Assembly: GCA_003611875.1 (NCBI GenBank)
Contig: RAYY01000034.1
Span: 1-52,955, forward strand
Direction of reading: 5' to 3'
DNA length: 52,955 nucleotides
DNA from: a bacterium D16-56
Lineage (GTDB): Bacteria > Bacillota > Clostridia > Lachnospirales > Lachnospiraceae
Within the stretch, counting starts at the first letter, position 1. Every line of letters begins with the position of its first letter. Positions 1 to 9,015 of this stretch are shown in pieces. The notes under the pieces are model-generated. The model was not told the DNA's origin. It did not search any database and was given only the letters and a program-made list of their open reading frames with translations. Both the position numbers and the translations under genes were made by a program.

Positions 1-42
1 CCAGTCTTCCTGATAATTGCCGCAACAAACTAAAAAAGTAAA

Positions 43-82
43 ACAGGTCTTCCCCCGGTAAGCACTGGGGGCTTTCTTATTT
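43..82 (+). terminator. Rho-independent terminator of a gene left of the window
   Basis: A stem of five C against five G encloses about ten bases and is followed by the T-rich run TTTCTTATTTT. It presumably ends a transcript entering from the left. Confidence 0.6.
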
Positions 83-385
83 TGTCAAGGTACAGATGAT
101 TACCTACTTACGGAATTGTAGAGGGGAGGAGGTTGTGGCGAGAGTGGAGGAGGGGAAGCCTTTTCTGTATTCTTTTCGGGGGGGGGTTCTTCTGGGATTG
201 TGGAAGGGTGATGGTGAAGTTGGGGGAGGAAGCGGAGGGGAGGAAGAGGAAAAATTAAAATCTGCATTCAGGAAAAAGAGGTTCTGCAATCACATTTGTT
301 GTTTTGGCAGAAATTATTTTGTTCAATGGCAGAAATATTTTTTTCTTAGAACACTAACCAAAACTCAATAGAAATAAACCAAAAC

Positions 386-419
386 GAGGACCTTGAGGGA
401 TAACACCTTTCAAGGCCTC
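386..419 (+). other. Conserved hairpin closing repeat unit 1
   Basis: GAGG-A-CCTTGA pairs with TCAAGG-CCTC around a loop of about 13 bases. The same hairpin, slightly altered, closes the next repeat unit. No T-run follows, so it is not a plain intrinsic terminator. Confidence 0.45.
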
Positions 420-666
420 TCAGTATTTAAAAAGAGTGTGTTGGCGGTGCTTGAGGTAGTGGGAGTATGGTGAGAAGATGAGGAGAGAAGAGGATTTTCT
501 TTCTTTTTTCTGGAGAGGAGAAGGGGAGTATGCTTTCGGTTTTCTCTCTTGAGATGGAGAGAATGAGGAGAGGGAAGAGGAAAAAATAAAATCTGCCAAG
601 AGAAAAAATAATTTCTGCCGTTACAGCTGAAGCGGAACTAAAAAATCAATAGAGATTAACTAAAAC

Positions 667-703
667 GAGGACCTTGAGAGATTACCCTTTCAAGGTTCTC
701 CTC
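667..703 (+). other. Conserved hairpin closing repeat unit 2
   Basis: The second copy keeps CCTTGA pairing with TCAAGG and pairs the outer GAG with CTC across a two-base bulge. Retention of the stem while the loop and bulge differ suggests an RNA structure. Confidence 0.4.
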
Positions 704-949
704 CTCTCTGTATCCGCTCCTGATTAAGAAAGAGTAGTGCTTTTGAGGGAATAGTAGTAAAATACAAAAAGATATGAATGTTCACTTTCGTTTTTTTCGG
801 AGAATGTAAGGGGAGGAAGAAGAACGAGCAAGCAAAAAAATTGCGAATTTCCGAAAAAGGAGCTTGCGGCAACAACAATGATGTATATTTTGTAAAGCAG
901 ATAGTCTTTTGCTGTCCATTGATATTTAAATGCAATTCATGACCAATAT

Positions 950-1633
950 GTGTGGGAAACCATGAATGTTTGTGGAAAGAATATGAATGGAGTCACTGAC
1001 AGAAAAATATTTTCAGAGATAATGAGCAGATTAAAAGTTATTCGTAAAAATGTAAGAAAGTATTATCCTGAAGATGAACAAAATTATCAGGAGGAAGCAA
1101 GCGGAACCATGAATAAAGAGAAAAAACCACTTGTATTTATAAGTCATTCATCCAAGAATAGAGAACAAGTCAAATTAATTGTGGAGTTATTGCGTGCTAT
1201 TAATATGCTTCCTCAACAGGATGTATTTTGCAGTTCGCTTCCAGGATATGATATACCAATTAACACCGCCTATCGGATTTTTGATTTTTTAAGAAGCAGA
1301 TTTCTGGAATATAATATACATGTTTTTTTTATACATTCTGCAGAATATTATGCAAGTGCAGTTAGTTTAAATGAAATGGGAGCTGCATGGGCATTAAAAT
1401 CAAAGGCTACATCTTTCCTTCTTCCTGGTTTCGAGTTTTCTGATATGAAGGGTGTGATAAATGGAGATAGGATAGCTATAAAGGTTGATAATGATGTTAT
1501 AGAGGTTAAAGACAAACTTAACCAATTGCGAGATGCTTTAGTAGCAGAATTTGAGCTTGCACCTGTCCCCAATATAACATGGGAGCAGGCAAGAGACAAG
1601 TTTATTGAGGAAATAAACCGCCCAAAATCATAG
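950..1633 (+). CDS. TIR-domain protein, zero-frame product (defence-type)
   Basis: The 227-residue product has an N-terminal helical lead of about 55 residues and then a bacterial TIR domain. LVFISHSS (61-68) is the first beta strand, CSSLPGYDIP (94-103) the BB-loop region, and LNEMGAAW (140-147) carries the likely NADase glutamate E142. Bacterial TIR domains of this type typically cleave NAD+ or make cyclic ADP-ribose signals in anti-phage defence. Starts at 962 or 983 are also possible; GGAAAG lies just before 983. The frame stops at TAG right after the text CCCAAAA, and a second domain follows in the -1 frame (1627-2460). A frameshift would give a protein of about 503 residues. Confidence 0.85.
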   Translation: MWETMNVCGKNMNGVTDRKIFSEIMSRLKVIRKNVRKYYPEDEQNYQEEASGTMNKEKKPLVFISHSSKNREQVKLIVELLRAINMLPQQDVFCSSLPGYDIPINTAYRIFDFLRSRFLEYNIHVFFIHSAEYYASAVSLNEMGAAWALKSKATSFLLPGFEFSDMKGVINGDRIAIKVDNDVIEVKDKLNQLRDALVAEFELAPVPNITWEQARDKFIEEINRPKS

Positions 1634-1689
1634 GGCAGCAATCAGATATAGATGTAAACGTATTTATGTTGTTAAAAAAGATTGCTGCC
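1607..1689 (+). promoter_or_regulatory. Candidate programmed -1 ribosomal frameshift site
   Basis: The parts are, in order: an SD-like GAGG (1607-1610); ten bases; the heptamer C CCA AAA (1621-1627), which is in the zero frame and fits X XXY YYZ; a six-base spacer containing the zero-frame TAG (1631-1633); and a perfect 10-bp stem, GGCAGCAATC (1634-1643) with GATTGCTGCC (1680-1689), around a 36-base loop. This matches the general layout of the dnaX site (upstream SD, slippery heptamer, downstream stem). After a -1 slip the reading continues through I-I-G-Q-Q into the next open frame. The alternative is a one-base deletion in the A-run. Confidence 0.55.
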
Positions 1690-2460
1690 ACAAATGATGG
1701 GATTTTGTTGACTCCATTTAATTTGGAAAATGGTGTTTCAATACAAGTTGGTAAAGAGATTATTGCTAGTGAATATCCAAACAGAAGAAATTATACCAAA
1801 TGGGATGCAATATTAAAGAATTGTATAAATTGGGGATACATTGAACAGAAGAATAAGGATGTTTATGCATTAACGAATTTAGGTTATAAATATGTGGATG
1901 AAAACGAAGATATAAAAGAAATAGAATTGTGTGGTAATACGTTTTTAACACCAGAGTCTCTGAATACCAGTATACATATTAATAATAGAAAATCACCAAG
2001 TTCATTGGAAGGGAGAATATTGGAATCAGGGGAGGTAATGGAAGATATATTAGGTGCGATAAAAACTAATTTGGAAAACAGCTTTGAAAAAAGGATTCTC
2101 TATGTAAGTAATTCGGTATCGGATAATGAAGTAGCTTTGCTCAGAACAGATTATAAAAAATTGGTTGATATAAATGAATTTGGCATTGATACAAGTAACC
2201 GTAAAGTGATTTATAGGTTATGCGGAATAGCTATTTTTAAAAGAAAAGTAGATGAATTTTTGAATCAGAATGTGGTTGTATCTGCCCGAGTAGGAGATGT
2301 CCTAATTGAAAGCATAACTACCTTTGATAATTGGAAATCAAAGAGTTATGCCAATAATGTCTTATCTGCAGAAGAATATGAATGTACTATTTGGTTTAAG
2401 ATATTGTCGGATAAAGACAATTTGTGCAAGGTACAAATACTTTTGATAGAGGAATACTAA
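1666..2460 (+). CDS. C-terminal half of the TIR protein in the -1 frame (winged-helix-like plus unknown domain)
   Basis: The open -1 frame actually begins after the TGA at 1606-1608. Its only early ATG (1666) lies inside the stem-loop and has no ribosome site, so independent initiation looks poor. The first 75 residues read like a winged helix (KNCINWGYIEQKNKDVYALT, then LGYKYV), a type often found C-terminal to bacterial TIR domains. The remaining ~190 residues (beta-rich, with FKRKVDEF and EYECTIWFKIL) are not recognised. Best read as the effector or sensor half of the upstream TIR protein. It ends one base before the next gene's ATG, which suggests coupling. Confidence 0.6.
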   Translation: MLLKKIAATNDGILLTPFNLENGVSIQVGKEIIASEYPNRRNYTKWDAILKNCINWGYIEQKNKDVYALTNLGYKYVDENEDIKEIELCGNTFLTPESLNTSIHINNRKSPSSLEGRILESGEVMEDILGAIKTNLENSFEKRILYVSNSVSDNEVALLRTDYKKLVDINEFGIDTSNRKVIYRLCGIAIFKRKVDEFLNQNVVVSARVGDVLIESITTFDNWKSKSYANNVLSAEEYECTIWFKILSDKDNLCKVQILLIEEY

Positions 2461-2461
2461 G

Positions 2462-3322
2462 ATGGATAATTTTAAAGAGAACTTGAAATATTATCGGATT
2501 GGTGAGTTTGTGGCTGGGATTATGTTAAAAGGTGTAATCCATCCAGATATGAAAGAGGACAACATAGGTTGCCGAAATGGCAATTGTGTTTTGTTGGATT
2601 TTGCAGATATAGATATGTTTGAATTCCCTGATGACATTGATGTAAGAATATTGAATCGATTGACGGACGCTTTATTTCCGCCAATGGAGAAGATTCTTAA
2701 GAATTTTGAATTTATGAGCAGTTTTAGAGCTGGATTTATATCTATTGGGGGAATGCTTGGGAAAGCAGTCTTTGATAATACAATTACTAATGGAATAAGT
2801 AGCTTTATTTATACTGATATAAATTTGAAAACTGAAAATAAAATTCCATCATATATATTCACTGCTGAGAGTAAGGCAATGGAAAAAGAATGGCAGAATC
2901 TGATTATAGAAGAATTGAAATATGGCGAAGCCGGAAATGCAATCTCAAATTTTGATTCTGAGTTGTTGAGTAAAGTTTCTAAAGCGAATTTATACCATAT
3001 GGATCAGATGATAGTATTGAAATCCTATTCGGAAATTGAAGATGCAGAGACAGATATGAGATTCTGGTTAACAGCTTTACATTTTGCTTGTGAATCAATA
3101 AAGCGTGGTTTTACATATACTGGATACGGAATACTTAGAAAGGTTTTACATATGTGTAAACATGCATATAAGCCGATTGTCTTGTATCATGCAAAAATTG
3201 AAGAACTTCTTGAAGAAAATGAACTAGAAGATGAAATAAAACAGCTTATTGAGGATAATATGAACTATAATTTTTTCCAGTTGCTATGGCTGATGAATGA
3301 TATTGATTCCTTTATGACATAA
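2462..3322 (+). CDS. Kinase-like protein lacking an N-lobe, partner of the TIR gene
   Basis: The ATG follows the upstream stop by one base, so the two are probably translationally coupled. Near the N terminus, residues H27-P-D29-M-K-E-D-N34 fit the HxDxxxxN catalytic loop of protein-kinase folds, and D46-F-A-D matches the metal-binding DFG region. Only 26 residues precede the loop, so there is no ATP-binding N-lobe or conserved lysine. It is either a truncated kinase, a pseudokinase, or one whose N-lobe comes from elsewhere. Residues ~60-286 are helical and unassigned. The same frame continues past two stops to 3427 with protein-like text, so the original gene may have been longer. Confidence 0.55.
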   Translation: MDNFKENLKYYRIGEFVAGIMLKGVIHPDMKEDNIGCRNGNCVLLDFADIDMFEFPDDIDVRILNRLTDALFPPMEKILKNFEFMSSFRAGFISIGGMLGKAVFDNTITNGISSFIYTDINLKTENKIPSYIFTAESKAMEKEWQNLIIEELKYGEAGNAISNFDSELLSKVSKANLYHMDQMIVLKSYSEIEDAETDMRFWLTALHFACESIKRGFTYTGYGILRKVLHMCKHAYKPIVLYHAKIEELLEENELEDEIKQLIEDNMNYNFFQLLWLMNDIDSFMT

Positions 3323-3427
3323 AACAATGTTATTGAATGACTAAGAACATTGGATGAAGAAATTCCAGAGAAATTAACTTTAACGATTAATGTTGCGAAT
3401 AAGTTGGCAGATAGATTGTGGTCGGTA
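3323..3427 (+). pseudogene. Protein-like tail after the kinase-like gene
   Basis: In the same frame as the kinase-like gene, after stops at 3320-3322 and 3338-3340, the text reads LRTLDEEIPEKLTLTI, then NVANKLADRLWSV and a stop. It has coding-like composition but no start with a ribosome site. I read it as the lost C terminus of the preceding gene. Confidence 0.3.
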
Positions 3428-3500
3428 TAAGCGAAAGAATCATACATCTAACCATGTGATAATGTCTGTGAAAATGTATTAAGAAGTAATTTATATCAAT

Positions 3501-3546
3501 AAAAAATCCCCTGCCACTGGTGAAATGAGTCGGTGGATTTTTTCAT
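3501..3546 (+). terminator. Terminator after the TIR/kinase operon
   Basis: AAAAATCC pairs with GGATTTTT across an inner CAC/GTG pairing, followed by further Ts. It fits the end of the 950-3322 transcript. Confidence 0.5.
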
Positions 3547-3689
3547 TTTCTGAAATCGCAAGCAACTCCTGTCTGTAAGCGGAAGGTATTGTGATAAAAA
3601 GCAATTATATATAATATTTATGATAACTATGGGAGCAGAGCCTTTAAATGGTTCTGTTCCTTATTTTTTGCGATACGGAAGGAGAGCTT

Positions 3690-3965
3690 ATGTATTCAGA
3701 AAGGCAAGAGAAATTAAAGTTATTTTTACGGCAACTGCAACAATCTGTAGAAGGAAGAACAGGGGAGAAAGTGGAGGTTCATTCAGTGACAAAGGCGGAC
3801 GGAAAGAAATTTCTTGAGATTATCATAGGGGAGAATCCTTTGCTTTCGCCTGTTATCTGGGTGAAGGAATCCAGAGCAGGTTATGGAAGGAACGGCTTAG
3901 AGGATATTTTGCAAAGGATTTGGACTGTGTATGGCAGATATAGAGAAAGGAAGGTAATGGTTTGA
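3690..3965 (+). CDS. Small protein resembling the N-terminal part of DUF5688
   Basis: AAGGAGAGC sits just upstream of the ATG at 3690, which decides the start over upstream ATGs. The 91 residues (MYSERQEKLKLFLRQLQQ, then GEKVEVHSVTKADGKKFLEI, ending YRERKVMV) resemble the beginning of the DUF5688 proteins of Lachnospiraceae, which are several times longer. It is therefore probably a truncated member. The stop overlaps the start of the next gene. Function unknown. Confidence 0.5.
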   Translation: MYSERQEKLKLFLRQLQQSVEGRTGEKVEVHSVTKADGKKFLEIIIGENPLLSPVIWVKESRAGYGRNGLEDILQRIWTVYGRYRERKVMV

Positions 3966-4589
3966 AACCGAATTTTAATTTTAAAGAGGAAGAAGTGTAT
4001 GATGATAAGGCTAATGTTACATTTAGCAGACTTTCAGAATATAATCGAGAAATCTTAGAAAAAATCAAAGATATCCCTAATTTGATAGATATTATAGATA
4101 GTATATATACATTTGATGATAAGGAAATGACCAGCATAAATAAGGTTGCAAGTGTAAGTGATGATACCTATATTCGGGAATGTAGGAGAGAATGGGATAG
4201 ATTTTGGGATTATTTTGGTGTTTTGGAGTATAGAGAATCTTGTTTTCCTAAGGGGGAAAGTTTATCGCTAACTTTTTCGGAAATACTTTTTTAAGAGATT
4301 TTTTTGAGAAAGTATGCAGATCGGCTAGAGACAATCTGGTTGAAGAAGATAAAAGGATAGAAGATAAGTAAGAAGTTTTCTTGATAGGCGAAAAAAGAAC
4401 TTTGATGAAGATGATAAAGATAAAATACAATGGGCGGCAACGAATCTTTATCAGATGATAAGAAGGTGTGTTGGAATTACAGAAGATATCAGGGAAAAAT
4501 TTGGAGAGTATTTTTCTGTTGTGTCAGCGTGGATTGGGCGGAATATATTCAATCAGGTCGTTCAGGTCACACTCAAGGGCATAGCATAA
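3962..4589 (+). pseudogene. Unknown protein gene broken by two -1 frameshifts
   Basis: It begins with TTG at 3962 behind AAGGAAGG. The first frame (MKPNFNFKEEEVYDDKANVT...) runs to about 4255. At the run AAGGGGGAAAG the sense continues in the -1 frame as GGKFIANFFGNTFLRDFFEK and on to IEDK. Near 4366 it shifts -1 again to RKKNFDEDDKDKIQWAATNL, ending around GEYFSVVSAWIGRNIF (4545). Joined, it gives about 200 residues of helical protein that I do not recognise. Its tail runs antisense into the XRE gene on the other strand. Confidence 0.55.
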
Positions 4590-4757
4590 TCGGGAAATGA
4601 CAGCCAAATCAACACGCTGTATATCCTCTTTCATATATGCTTTTAACTGTGTGCGTTGCATTTCAGCACGGAATGCAAGTTTGTTGATACTGATATTCTG
4701 TTCCGCCATCAAATCAGCTAATTTTTTGCGGACGTGTCCGTAATCTACATCAATCAT
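4524..4757 (-). CDS. XRE-family HTH regulator (Cro/C1 type)
   Basis: The 77-residue protein starts at MIDVDYGHVRKKLADLMAEQ because AGGTGATT precedes that ATG; an upstream ATG (4799) has no site. The HTH spans about residues 8-66: NISINKLAFRAEMQRTQLKA is the helix-turn-helix and VISRLCYALECDLNDLIEYI the last helices, as in the HTH_26 group. It is probably an autoregulator of a neighbouring unit. Its 3' end overlaps the decayed gene on the plus strand. Confidence 0.8.
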   Translation of the reverse strand: MIDVDYGHVRKKLADLMAEQNISINKLAFRAEMQRTQLKAYMKEDIQRVDLAVISRLCYALECDLNDLIEYIPPNPR

Positions 4758-4916
4758 AGTAATCACCTCATATATTTCTATAATAGTTTTCCACAACACA
4801 TATTGCTATGAGTGGAAAAACATGATTTAATTTTATGAGTAGATATATGCTCATTCCATCGGAAAGAAATATAAGTATTCACAAAATAAATATTAGATAA
4901 TCGGGAGGTAGTTAAG

Positions 4917-5635
4917 ATGGCACTATTTGATAAGGACTCCATTTCAGGAGCATTAGAAAAAGCGAAAGGACTGGCAGGAAAGGCAGCGGAAGCCGCTAAG
5001 ACTGGGATGACCAGACAAAGACATTGGTAAGTGAAAAGATGGAGCAGTCTAAGCAGAATAAACTTCCGCAAGAGGGTGGCTTGATTCGCTATGAGGTAAT
5101 ATATAAGGGCGATCATCCTGATTTTCAGTTGGAGAAAAAGAAAAGTTCGTACATATTGCTTGACATTATGCCCGACAGATTCAGCTTTTTGGCGAAACCT
5201 CAAAGTGAGGACTGGTTTACAGGGTTTGAGATTCCATATAACAGGATTATTTCATTAGAGATTGTGGAAAGAGTTATCAGCAATGCAGAAATGCTGTTAA
5301 GCAGTGGCAGTAATAACAGCGATTTAAGGCAGAAGAACGTGATAGAAATCAAATACCTTGATGAAGTGGGTGACGAGTATGTTGTCAGGAATGAAATGCT
5401 TACAGGCACTACCGTCATGGGTCAGGCTAAGGTATGTCAGGAAATGATTGACCTGCTCCGCACGAAAGGCATTATGAAGCAGTTTAAGGGAACGGAAAAC
5501 AGTCATTCTGCTAATGCTTCTGGTGGGGATGATGTATTAAGCCAAATCGAAAAACTTGCCAAGCTGAAAGAACAGGGGATATTGACAGAGGAAGAATTTG
5601 CAAACAAAAAGGCGGCATTGTTGGAGCAGTTGTAA
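4917..5635 (+). pseudogene. SHOCT-domain protein with an N-terminal frameshift
   Basis: GGGAGGT precedes the ATG at 4917, giving MALFDKDSISGALEKAKGLA and an Ala/Lys-rich stretch. A frameshift at ACTGGGATG (about 5003-5007) then moves the sense to the -1 frame (DDQTKTLVSEKMEQSKQ), which stays open to 5635 (the ATG at 5036 could start a shorter product). The middle (KKSSYILLDIMPDRFSFLAK to VCQEMIDLLRTKG) resembles a PH-like domain. The end (DVLSQIEKLAKLKEQGILTE, then EEFANKKAALL) is a typical SHOCT C-terminal domain, thought to mediate oligomerisation. One lost G in a G-run explains the break. Confidence 0.65.
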
Positions 5636-5665
5636 TAACGATAATTTTCAAGGAGGATTTGTTAT

Positions 5666-6001
5666 ATGGAATCGTATAAAAAGGAAATTACACTGGAAAA
5701 TATTGCGGATACTTATAACGGCAGACCGTGGGAAGAAGTATCAACAGAGGAACTGGAAGCCATAAGCCATATAAGCATAGGGGCTGCTTCTTTGCGGTTA
5801 TCCCAGAAGGCAAAAGAGATTTTGGAAGAAAGAAAAGCGGCAGAAGAAAGCGCAAAAAAAGCACTTGATGATGGTTCTGTCAAAGGTTTAATCATAAGCA
5901 GGGATTATACCAATGTTGGTGAAGGTGTAGCAATCCAAAATATTGTTGATGGGGTAAGCACATGGACAATTGCGGTGGAGGTTGTTGCAGTAGTGCAATG
6001 A
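5666..6001 (+). CDS. Small unknown protein, probably frameshifted near its end
   Basis: AAGGAGG lies upstream of ATG 5666. The 111 residues include a Glu/Lys/Ala-rich helix (QKAKEILEERKAAEESAKKA) and end STWTIAVEVVAVVQ. The tail looks out of frame: a -1 shift at ACATGGAC would continue as STW-DNCGGGCC into the next open frame, which is richer in cysteine and more protein-like. So this and the next entry may be one broken gene of about 180 residues. Function unknown. Confidence 0.5.
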   Translation: MESYKKEITLENIADTYNGRPWEEVSTEELEAISHISIGAASLRLSQKAKEILEERKAAEESAKKALDDGSVKGLIISRDYTNVGEGVAIQNIVDGVSTWTIAVEVVAVVQ

Positions 6002-6213
6002 TGGTCACTCCAAAAGATACAATTTATTGGAAAGATATTGAAGAAGCCGCAGGTAATCTATGTGCTTTTTGCCGCAGGAAATTTAAAAAAGAAGATATTA
6101 TTCTATTCAGCGTAGATTCGTTTTATTCTCCTATGACAATGGGGATTGTATTTTTGGAGGATAAAATATGTACTTTTGACCAGAAAATGTTGATTTTACA
6201 GAAGATTCTGTGA
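5962..6213 (+). CDS. Cysteine-rich small protein or C-terminal half of the preceding gene
   Basis: Read from ATG 5962 the product opens MDNCGGGCCSSAMM and contains a CAFCRRKF knuckle (a possible zinc site). After SFYSP a further -1 shift would give YDNGDCIFGG and a stop directly before the next gene's ribosome site, which looks more natural than the annotated 83-residue end. No own ribosome site is evident at 5962. Confidence 0.4.
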   Translation: MDNCGGGCCSSAMMVTPKDTIYWKDIEEAAGNLCAFCRRKFKKEDIILFSVDSFYSPMTMGIVFLEDKICTFDQKMLILQKIL

Positions 6214-6329
6214 CAATCAGAGTGACAAGCGGTGAAGATGTGAGTCTGTATTGTGGTAATGATGAAAAATATAGCAAGGGCATTTACAATTTGCTTATGG
6301 ATATTAAGGACAGAATAGCAGGAGCATGA
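6168..6329 (+). pseudogene. Small gene with an in-frame TGA at codon 4
   Basis: An ideal ribosome site GGAGGA is six bases before ATG 6168. The frame reads M-Y-F-stop-PENVDFTEDSVTIRVTSGED and on to LLMDIKDRIAGA. The text after the stop is clearly protein-like. TGG (Trp) to TGA is the simplest explanation, giving a 53-residue ancestral protein of unknown function. Nothing suggests selenocysteine. Confidence 0.5.
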
Positions 6330-6422
6330 TGGGCTGTGCGGATTGACACATAGGGAAGATATTAAGCAGAGGTATCTTCCCTTTCCTTTATTGTTATTTT
6401 TTTCGCAGATTGGAATGGTTTT

Positions 6423-7889
6423 ATGGAAAATTATAAAGCGGAGAGAAAACGGGCAAAGCAGGCTGCAATAATGGCAGGGATGATACATAGAAATATCAGC
6501 AATGCCGCTACTGTTTACGGTGAGGAAAAATTTCATGCAAGCCGTGGACATGGATTTGCGGCGGAAAGGGCGAATACATTCTATGACAGATTCAAAGGGC
6601 ATGATGCACAGCTTATCGGAGATAATAATATAAAAGATGGTGCTGACAGGATTGTAGACGGTATCAACATACAATCGAAATATTGTGCTACTGGCAGTGA
6701 ATGTATCCGTGAATGTTTTTCTGATGGGAAATTCCGATATATGAACAGTGACGGAACACCTATGCAGATAGAAGTCCCGTTTGACAAATATGATTCTGCG
6801 GTTCAAGCCATGCAGGAACGGATTCGCAGGGGAGAAGTCCCAAATGTGAGTAATCCCGAAGAAGCAAAAGATATTGTCAGACAGGGAAAGTTTACTTATG
6901 AGCAAGTTAGGAATATTGCAAAAGCAGGTACGGTTGAATCTATTGCTTATGATGCAGTAAATGGCATGATAATAGCAACAGGTGCATTTGGAATTACGAC
7001 AGTCCTTTCTTTTGCTGTATCTGTCTGGAATGGGGATGAAATTGAAATTGCTTTGCAAAATGCGGTTGCAGAGGGATTAAAAGTCAGCGGAGTTACGCTG
7101 ATTACTGCTATTTTTGCAGGACAGCTTACAAAGGCTGGATTAAACAGTATGCTTGTTGGTGTCAGTGAGGGCATGGCAAAGGCATTAGGGACAAAAGGCT
7201 ATACATTACTTGCAAATGCATTTAACAGCGGTAAGAATATTTATGGTGCGGCGACAATGAAAAGCATGGCAAAAATGCTTCGTGGAAATATTATAACGGG
7301 AGTAGCTTCCGTTGCAATTCTTTCGACTGTGGATGTGGTTAATGTATTTCGAAGAAGAATATCAGGCGGTCAGCTGCTTAAAAATGTTGCAAATACAACA
7401 GCGACAACAATCGGAGGGACAGTTGGATGGATAGCAGGTTCAGCGATTCCCATTGTCGGACAGATCGCAGGGGCATTTATCGGTGGCACGCTTGCAAATA
7501 AAGCCACAAGTGCTGTGCTTGACAATTTTGTGGCGGATGATGCAGACGCTATGGTGGAAATCATAGAAACGGTTTTTGTGAGGATAACTATGGAGTATCT
7601 TTTGACAGGACATGAAGTAGAAGATACAGTTGATTATATGAGTAAGAATATTAGTGGAAAAGAGTTAAAAGATATGTATGCAAGTGATGACAAGGAATAT
7701 TATGCTAAAATGCTGATTCAGACTTATGTAGAGCAAAAGATATTACAAAGGGAGTATATAAAGGATATTACGGCAGAAGGGCTTCAAGAAGGTCTGCGTA
7801 TGGCTTTGGAAAATATAGGGAACAGTGAAGAATATGAAAATAGTTTTGAAAATGGCGAGTTAAGCAAATATGTGGTTATGGATTGTTAA
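6423..7889 (+). CDS. YeeR-like membrane protein
   Basis: This 488-residue protein resembles, from memory, the YeeR-type inner-membrane proteins found on prophage and accessory islands. A soluble N-terminal region (residues ~1-165) carries RGHGFAAERANTFYDRFKGH and ADRIVDGINIQSKYCATGSE. Then come hydrophobic, Gly/Ala-rich segments at about 183-200, 225-245, 285-303 and 320-360 (TIGGTVGWIAGSAIPIVGQI), and an acidic helical C terminus. The ribosome site is weak (GGAATGG). Location suggests a defence or stress role, but no catalytic motif is visible. Confidence 0.55.
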   Translation: MENYKAERKRAKQAAIMAGMIHRNISNAATVYGEEKFHASRGHGFAAERANTFYDRFKGHDAQLIGDNNIKDGADRIVDGINIQSKYCATGSECIRECFSDGKFRYMNSDGTPMQIEVPFDKYDSAVQAMQERIRRGEVPNVSNPEEAKDIVRQGKFTYEQVRNIAKAGTVESIAYDAVNGMIIATGAFGITTVLSFAVSVWNGDEIEIALQNAVAEGLKVSGVTLITAIFAGQLTKAGLNSMLVGVSEGMAKALGTKGYTLLANAFNSGKNIYGAATMKSMAKMLRGNIITGVASVAILSTVDVVNVFRRRISGGQLLKNVANTTATTIGGTVGWIAGSAIPIVGQIAGAFIGGTLANKATSAVLDNFVADDADAMVEIIETVFVRITMEYLLTGHEVEDTVDYMSKNISGKELKDMYASDDKEYYAKMLIQTYVEQKILQREYIKDITAEGLQEGLRMALENIGNSEEYENSFENGELSKYVVMDC

Positions 7890-7934
7890 AAGGGGAGTTT
7901 TGTGCTAAAATGGCTGTAAAGGGAGTGAAATGCT

Positions 7935-8414
7935 ATGGACAGGAAATTAAAAGTGTATTTAGACACATCCGTTATAAGTTATCTGCAACAGGAAGATACG
8001 CCAGAACGGATGAAAGACACATTAGCTCTTTGGAAGCAGTTTGAAGCTAAAAAGTATGATATTTATCTGTCACAGGTGACTCTTGATGAAGTGGGTGAGT
8101 GCCGTGCGCCAAAAAGAACGGCACTATTTGAATATTTGAGCAGGATTTCTTATACAAAACTGGAAATAACGAATGAAGTTTTAAAAGTTGCAAACCAGAT
8201 TATAGATATGGGCATACTGACACCGAAAAGCTTTGATGACTGTCAGCATATAGCAACTGCTGTTGTGCATGGGTGTGACTGCATCATATCGTGGAATTTT
8301 AAGCATATTGTAAATATAAAGACCATTAAGGGTGTCAGAGCAATCACACACCTTGAAAGCTATAAAGACATTGATATTATGAATCCGTCCGTATTATTAG
8401 GAGGTGGGGAATAA
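7935..8414 (+). CDS. PIN-domain toxin (VapC-like ribonuclease)
   Basis: The 159 residues begin KLKVYLDTSVISYLQ, whose aspartate is the first PIN acidic residue. LSQVTLDEVGEC supplies the acidic residue of the middle helix, and KSFDDCQHIATAVVHGCDCI plus SWNFKHIVN give the later DxxH and W-N-x-x-H features of the bacterial PIN subgroup. PIN toxins cut RNA. A GGGAG site precedes the ATG by seven bases. The stop shares one base with the ATG of the small partner gene, so toxin comes before antitoxin. Confidence 0.8.
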   Translation: MDRKLKVYLDTSVISYLQQEDTPERMKDTLALWKQFEAKKYDIYLSQVTLDEVGECRAPKRTALFEYLSRISYTKLEITNEVLKVANQIIDMGILTPKSFDDCQHIATAVVHGCDCIISWNFKHIVNIKTIKGVRAITHLESYKDIDIMNPSVLLGGGE

Positions 8415-8590
8415 TGGCATATACATTGGAAATTAGCCCAAATTTTACAGTTGAGGATATACACAAGATTCGTGAGCGCAATTATGAAGTGACAAAGCAC
8501 ATGACAGCGGAAGAGAAACTGCTTTATTATAATACGCCAAGGACAGATGCGGAAGAACAAATAGAACGGCTTAGGGCAAGGAATAGCTAA
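8414..8590 (+). CDS. Small antitoxin partner of the PIN toxin
   Basis: The 58-residue product starts in the TAATG overlap with the toxin stop. It reads MAYTLEISPNFTVEDIHKIR, then an acidic and helical part (MTAEEKLLYYNTPRTDAEEQ) ending RLRARNS. Size, overlap and composition fit a type II antitoxin whose C-terminal helix would block the PIN active site. No classical DNA-binding fold is certain. Confidence 0.65.
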   Translation: MAYTLEISPNFTVEDIHKIRERNYEVTKHMTAEEKLLYYNTPRTDAEEQIERLRARNS

Positions 8591-9015
8591 GGCTGTAAGC
8601 ATTATTCGAAAAAATTGTACAGAGAAATAACTGTTTTCCAATTATTTTTTTCTGCATTGGCAGAATGATTAACCTATAATCATTGAAAACGGGGCGTTAC
8701 AAGATTACAGTGAACGGTGTATCGCCTTGGGTGCGCACAGCACAGGCTGCTATTAACTAGAACTCAGGTAGGATTTGACCTATTAGAAGCTAACTATGCA
8801 ATGATTCAGCTATGTATTTTTTACTGCTGAAAGAGCAAAATAAATATCAGAGAATTTGATAATAGCATGTTTTTTTGTAAATGCTGTATAGCTGAACCAT
8901 TACCAGGAGATTACGGTTTTTCCTAATATTTATAAAAATATGTGCTGTTTTATTTGGTATATATAGAGAAAGCAGCACATATTATATTAGGGAACAAAAG
9001 AAAGGAATAGATCTT
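8591..9015 (+). other. Gene-poor stretch with a possible 3' gene remnant
   Basis: No full gene is seen. One short open stretch (about 8682-8760) reads TGRYKITVNGVSPWVRTAQA, then AIN and a stop. That looks like the C terminus of a lost extracellular or peptidoglycan-binding protein. The rest is A+T-rich and presumably holds the promoter of the small gene at 9016. Confidence 0.3.

Follow-up and report, generated by a model that had tools for sequence, protein, structure and literature searches.

Does a bacterial TIR gene use programmed −1 ribosomal frameshifting to make two proteins, or has it lost a nucleotide? The locus that raises this question lies close to one end of the window, which is the entire 52,955-nt contig RAYY01000034.1 (our C129) of the 5.54-Mb draft genome of the Lachnospiraceae bacterium D16-56, assembled in 202 contigs. 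Here, a TIR open reading frame (ORF) stops while the −1 frame stays open. The original prediction described a GAGG run, an in-phase slippery heptamer, a six-base spacer containing the stop codon and a 10-bp stem, and each of these was confirmed in the sequence (Table 1). The anatomy is thus real and its combination unlike the outcome of random deletions, but the programmed reading is unproven. As detailed below, the evidence suggests to us that this is probably a 1-nt deletion in a rearranged, likely decaying SpbK-type TIR gene; the probabilities that we voice for this and three rival explanations are judgements, not computed posteriors.

Table 1. Features of the locus, in window coordinates.
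Feature	Position	Strand	Remark
Repeat	1-112		Also present in six further contigs of this genome (at their ends or inside)
Repeats	417-734		Similar to parts of contigs C4, C156 and C187
In-frame TGA	920-922	+	Directly upstream of the TIR ORF
SpbK-type TIR ORF	950-1633	+	227 aa from GTG 950; PADLOC spbK; homology to relatives from about 938
AGGAGG (1089-1094) and ATG 1109	1089-1111	+	14 nt apart; before the TIR core; possible internal start
SD-like GAGG	1607-1610	+	Ten bases 5′ of the heptamer, read in the sequence
Heptamer C CCA AAA	1621-1627	+	In phase with ORF 950-1633
Spacer TCATAG	1628-1633	+	Includes the zero-frame stop TAG 1631-1633
10-bp stem, 5′ arm	1634-1643	+	GGCAGCAATC
10-bp stem, 3′ arm	1680-1689	+	GATTGCTGCC; encodes conserved K-I-A-A
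Winged helix	1654-1920	+	−1 frame; homologous to winged helices of relatives; structure model
Xc	2029-2457	+	Rare domain following the winged helix in the same frame; matches G338 (E 4e-8) and G544 (E 3e-7)
Gene Y	2462-3322	+	286 aa; partner of Xc; G338 homologue aligns over residues 5-283 and adjoins the G338 Xc gene

The −1 frame extends uninterrupted from 1609 to a stop at 2458–2460 and overlaps the zero frame over 25 nt (1609–1633), with the heptamer in phase inside this overlap. The stem pairs perfectly, encloses a loop of 36 nt and begins 6 nt past the heptamer. RNA spanning 1628–1700 was predicted to fold at −22 kcal/mol, with a z of −4.9 in one run and −5.2 in another, and a z of −4.9 was attained by one of 688 coding windows sampled on the same contig. 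Between 900 and 3500, the stem was the sole inverted pair with separate arms under the settings used, the other two being palindromes. The available parts of PMC4066793 place such stems usually 5–8 nt from the heptamer and name the class Y_YY.A_AA.R, to which this heptamer belongs, shifty. With sites of the dnaX/IS type, as portrayed in the accessible portions of PMC4066793 and PMC3711429, the junction shares an SD-like run, an in-phase X XXY YYZ, a nearby stop and a stem 6 nt downstream; whereas those proven families recur over many genomes, the window site is a prediction for which conservation in relatives was not found. Given parts that all sit at fitting distances, a lineage-specific programmed −1 frameshift on C CCA AAA, aided by GAGG and the stem, is an explanation that we consider fairly unlikely yet worth weighing in full. 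It would yield the TIR protein and a minority TIR–winged helix–Xc fusion working with Y.

The downstream frame had been described as having no usable start of its own; its first ATG lies at 1666, and no SD-like run was seen before it by eye. That two separately translated genes meet here, the second beginning at ATG 1666, therefore strikes us as highly improbable: the codon does stand just before the conserved winged-helix core, but it lies within the stem loop and, going by the structure model, would cut the first predicted helix (residues 10–21).

As to the upstream ORF, its TIR identity was borne out by a match of the PADLOC spbK profile to ORF residues 18–223 (E 2e-61), placing the domain in the SpbK family. 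The NEMGAAW motif, including its E, is present, and Pfam TIR_2 scored 17.7 bits, under the cut-off of 28. SpbK itself, the TIR NADase of Bacillus subtilis ICEBs1 (described in the available text of PMC12847820, PMC11984713 and PMC8880864), is alike in its TIR part, and its residues N191, E192, G194 and W197 fall, by our own matching of positions, within NEMGAAW and are kept here. SpbK ends with the TIR domain, however, while in the window a truncated N-terminal domain precedes it and the winged helix and Xc follow in another frame. The profile match begins only at position 112 of 308, the match to the relative L005 starts at window position 938, and the ~57 N-terminal codons of L005–L008 found no counterpart, either by tblastn of these four relatives against window 1–1000 or in the alignment. 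With a TGA directly upstream as well, the N-terminal sensor domain of SpbK-type proteins is not present in full. Since, according to the accessible parts of PMC11984713 and PMC12847820, it is the N-terminal domain of SpbK that binds YonE, the phage portal, the missing codons belong to the known sensor, and the label ‘sensor’ that had been attached to the C-terminal half is doubtful. The lost codons and the in-frame TGA were counted for a deletion in a decaying gene, and the N-terminal loss also against programmed frameshifting. On the other side, the ORFs of L010 and L012 begin directly at the TIR domain, so the loss need not be fatal, and this was counted against decay.

To compare the junction across homologues, we searched with the read-through protein and found matches in 22 of 397 family genomes, the own genome included; within the genus, two of 24 genomes matched, namely the own genome and the TIR-only G022. 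A first scan of genome contigs gave no match; repeated with an alignment query, it returned 219 relatives, the best 80 of which entered the analysis, and a scan of viral contigs returned seven. Together with 14 loci from the family search, these amounted to 101 loci and, as L015 lacked the anchor motif, 100 TIR ORFs. Among the matches listed, 36 of the 100 carried a winged-helix match at E 1e-3, or 31 once identical cores had been removed, and in 29 of these 31 distinct relatives TIR and winged helix share one frame. An alignment of homologues had been proposed as the way to reveal a conserved heptamer and stem between split frames; among the matches listed, it brought up almost exclusively unbroken genes, which we counted for a deletion and against frameshifting. 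According to the available part of PMC3711429, the magnesium chelatase family—a proven case of frameshifting—also has fused relatives, so frameshifting here is compatible with relatives that are unbroken.

The two exceptions, both inspected by eye, retain an intact TIR ORF: in L033 (2714–3850), the winged helix contains several in-frame stops, and in L044 (2060–3180) it lies in the −1 frame and has a further stop. L045, a near-copy of L044, went uncounted, as the match to its broken winged helix did not reach the threshold. Judging from these three sequences, loss of the winged helix beside an intact TIR ORF appears to recur, and the differently broken winged helices of L033 and L044 were counted for a deletion in the window gene. 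In L044, the scanned stretch is free of in-phase heptamers, and L033 has one far from the break. As for the same-frame relatives (among the matches listed), 28 could be scanned over 45 codons from the W motif, which is absent from L103; an in-phase heptamer was present in seven, in no case CCCAAAA, and missing from 21. No close relative with split frames, against which to compare the stem, was found among the relatives examined, and this weighs against frameshifting; nor did the exact junction pattern occur in the viral contigs searched. Searches of plasmids (19 records) and phages (4 records) with the read-through protein gave matches within query residues 43–265, mostly to TIR alone, and no plasmid sharing window DNA was found.

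The most informative comparison is with L027, a gene of a Lachnospiraceae metagenome-assembled genome and the nearest relative among the matches listed (65% identical over query residues 1–313). It is a single frame of 380 aa in which an N-terminal domain is followed by the TIR and then by the winged helix, where the frame ends; by eye, an AGGAGG precedes its ATG. Both L027 and L005 resemble the window gene in the order TIR, then winged helix; they differ from it in having one frame, a full N-terminus, an end after the winged helix and no heptamer. Between the matching Asn and Gln-Gln-Ser codons, the linker measures 27 nt in L027 and 26 nt in the window. Intact one-frame relatives and a one-nucleotide length difference at the break are what marks an indel pseudogene, and both are found here. 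L027 has no heptamer in the scanned stretch and, by eye, cannot form the stem. Relatives with both parts in one frame, the nearest of them having an additional nucleotide and neither heptamer nor stem, are much of what the original prediction had itself named as its refutation. The linker difference was counted for a deletion, and the absence of heptamer and stem against frameshifting, a point tempered by the identity of only 65%; conversely, the predicted fusion would retain the linker length of L027, as frameshifting would have it.

Differences between the window and L027 fall at the three codon positions as 51/37/123 in 230 TIR codons and as 30/22/50 in 91 linker-plus-winged-helix codons; dS was saturated in this comparison, making dN/dS unusable. 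The skew toward position 3 means that the downstream part still looks coding-like, implying either a recent break or continuing translation of this part. This apparent constraint was counted against a deletion.

We next asked how rare such a junction would be by chance. Singly, its parts are ordinary: perfect stems of at least 10 bp with loops of 3–50 nt occur 18 times within the 53-kb window, a 4-nt SD-like run at the GAGG–heptamer distance precedes 2240 of 15,447 ORF positions, and 59,711 of 400,000 simulated 1-nt deletions placed an in-phase heptamer inside the overlap. Jointly, they are rare under random 1-nt deletions. A heptamer together with a Watson–Crick stem of at least 10 bp at a spacing of 5–9 nt arose in three of the 400,000, against 70 with stems of 9 bp, 214 with 8 bp and 1101 with 10 bp when G-U pairs were allowed. 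Among 26,458 simulated deletions, heptamer and fold coincided once at z ≤ −4.9 and 35 times at z ≤ −3, and heptamer and perfect stem never, all under thresholds chosen after the site had been seen. These frequencies (3/400,000; 1/26,458) were counted against a deletion and speak for frameshifting. The accessible text of PMC3711429 reports 206,991 frame-transition genes over 1106 genomes, with four newly confirmed frameshift families. Frame breaks being so numerous, a large scan should turn up some chance sites as good as this one, and genuine new frameshifts are few too; the chance statistics by themselves do not settle the choice between deletion and programmed frameshift.

In the history that we favour, TIR and winged helix would at first have shared a frame, as they do in the relatives. 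Rearrangement would account for the missing first ~57 codons and for the attachment of the winged helix to the rare domain Xc, and the linker would have lost 1 nt, shifting the winged helix into the −1 frame, presumably recently, as the downstream part still looks constrained. At most, the locus would now give rise to a TIR protein that terminates at 1633 and begins either at a weak start near 950 or at ATG 1109, which follows AGGAGG. Heptamer and stem would be a rare coincidence, noticed because many junctions were read. From PMC3711429, as far as its available text goes, we cite for the deletion that BLASTp-validated singletons are expected to be sequencing errors rather than indels. An assembly or sequencing error in this draft, with a continuous gene in the living strain, is an explanation that we rate as very unlikely. 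The 202 contigs, the position of the gene 0.95–2.5 kb from a contig end that is itself a repeat, and the continuous relatives are in keeping with such an error, but the junction contains no homopolymer longer than four bases and many other long ORFs of the window are uninterrupted.

Were the frameshift genuine, it would be the first reported for TIR immunity among the literature matches listed, and would put the effector-to-fusion ratio under translational control. That such control is not known to have been described for TIR immunity agrees with our literature search, in which no frameshifting in TIR or defence genes appeared among the matches listed. Were it not, the site would warn that a complete-looking frameshift signal can occur in a gene with unbroken relatives.

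A TIR-only product might also have a simpler, possible source in an internal start. From the 100 TIR ORFs (among the matches listed), we set aside those that lacked the core motif, had under 60 codons ahead of it or shared an identical core, leaving 71. An internal start with a Shine–Dalgarno match at a spacing of 4–11 nt was present in 22 of the 71 when at least five bases were required and in 15 when at least six were, against means of 9.6 and 4.0 in synonymous shuffles, of which 0 of 1000 reached the observed values. Taking one ORF per 70% cluster (40 ORFs), the counts were 14 and 10 versus shuffle means of 5.8 and 2.5 (again 0 of 1000), while other internal start codons in the clustered ORFs had such matches in 31 (at least five bases) and 5 (at least six) of 713 cases. 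SpbK-like genes are thus enriched for an internal Shine–Dalgarno sequence and start right before the TIR domain. The window gene, whose TIR motif was judged by eye for this survey, is not among the positives, its spacing of 14 nt being too long and outside the tallied range. Matches of at least six bases were found in L005, L006, L032, L033, L034, L040, L041, L046, L050, L053, L055, L057, L063, L065 and L108; 49 of the 71 ORFs, L027 among them, stayed below five bases, and of the 14 entries labelled Bacteroidales, Bacteroidetes, Bacteroides, Bacteroidaceae or Prevotella, just L084 attained five. The available portions of PMC12847820 and PMC8880864 contain no occurrence of ‘internal start’, ‘internal translation’ or ‘isoform’, and a literature search for internal initiation in TIR defence genes yielded none among the matches listed. 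The enrichment is directly testable and could mean that SpbK-like genes also yield a TIR-only protein.

Turning to the downstream frame, the predicted structure was confident for the winged helix only (residues 10–98, pLDDT about 95–97 except at the end). Foldseek with this model returned no match at E ≤ 0.001, winged-helix regulators such as QsrR appearing at E 0.24. Xc is rare, with matches in three of 397 family genomes, counting the own genome and the weak G040, and a combined Xc–Y profile found two matches among 186 genomes: one in the own genome and one weak, with internal stops. G040 and G317 were set aside as relatives of Xc or Y, as tblastn was unsupportive or the match lay within a larger, unrelated-looking ORF, as was G897, a weak match to Xc–Y. 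The idea that Y is a truncated kinase (TIGR03724, E 0.0015, below the cut-off) was dropped because its G338 homologue aligns nearly full-length. In phages, plasmids and viral contigs, no relative was found of the downstream half, of Y or of the G544 Xc–Y; the same held for the G338 Y in plasmids or viral contigs and for an Xc–Y alignment searched against viral contigs.

The rare Xc–Y pair was seen at three loci—window 2029–3322, G338 (L134 7267–8942) and G544 (L135 3971–6138)—behind differing N-terminal parts, namely TIR–winged helix in the window, a HamA1-profile match in G338 and a further domain in G544. The G338 version of Xc makes up the C-terminal part of a gene X and is followed by Y, in the same order as in the window; X, in contrast, runs in one frame, its N-terminal part, matched by PADLOC HamA1 over 168 residues (E 1e-7), is unrelated, and identity to the window is 24–27%. 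A single ORF encodes both Xc and Y in G544; relative to the preceding ORF it is in the −1 frame (L135 5422–5578, minus strand), and its first 114 codons include no ATG, GTG or TTG. Three heptamers are in phase at its junction (A AAA AAA, A AAA AAT, A AAT TTG), with runs of seven A, and the folds after these heptamers are unremarkable (z 0.66, −0.30 and −0.97). That a second Xc ORF likewise lies in the −1 frame and has the in-phase heptamers A AAA AAA and A AAA AAT speaks for frameshifting; the lack of a notable fold there, seven-A runs that could be an indel, and the single frame of X in G338 speak against it. One could imagine Xc–Y as a plug-in defence module, in which the N-terminal effector, be it TIR as in the window or the different domain of G544, would be joined to Xc by programmed −1 frameshifting, a fixed minority of the effector carrying Xc, so that, together with internal starts, effector-to-sensor ratios would be set during translation; this scheme is speculative and, in our judgement, unlikely.

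With regard to the surroundings of the TIR gene, the repeats between it and the contig end raise the possibility that the gene lost its 5′ end to a mobile or repetitive element. A SHOCT-domain gene at 4917–5635, 3.3 kb away, is apparently split by another −1 shift, and its frame overlap (5000–5030) contains no in-phase heptamer. An earlier caution that other −1 frameshifts lie nearby is in accord with this apparent break, but the searches made found no intact relative of the SHOCT gene as proof. This second apparent −1 break, lacking a heptamer, was counted for a deletion in the TIR gene. The nearest TIR–winged helix gene, that of L027, sits between two large ORFs (1373–8778), which by eye we take to be a DUF499-type ATPase and a PglX-type methyltransferase.
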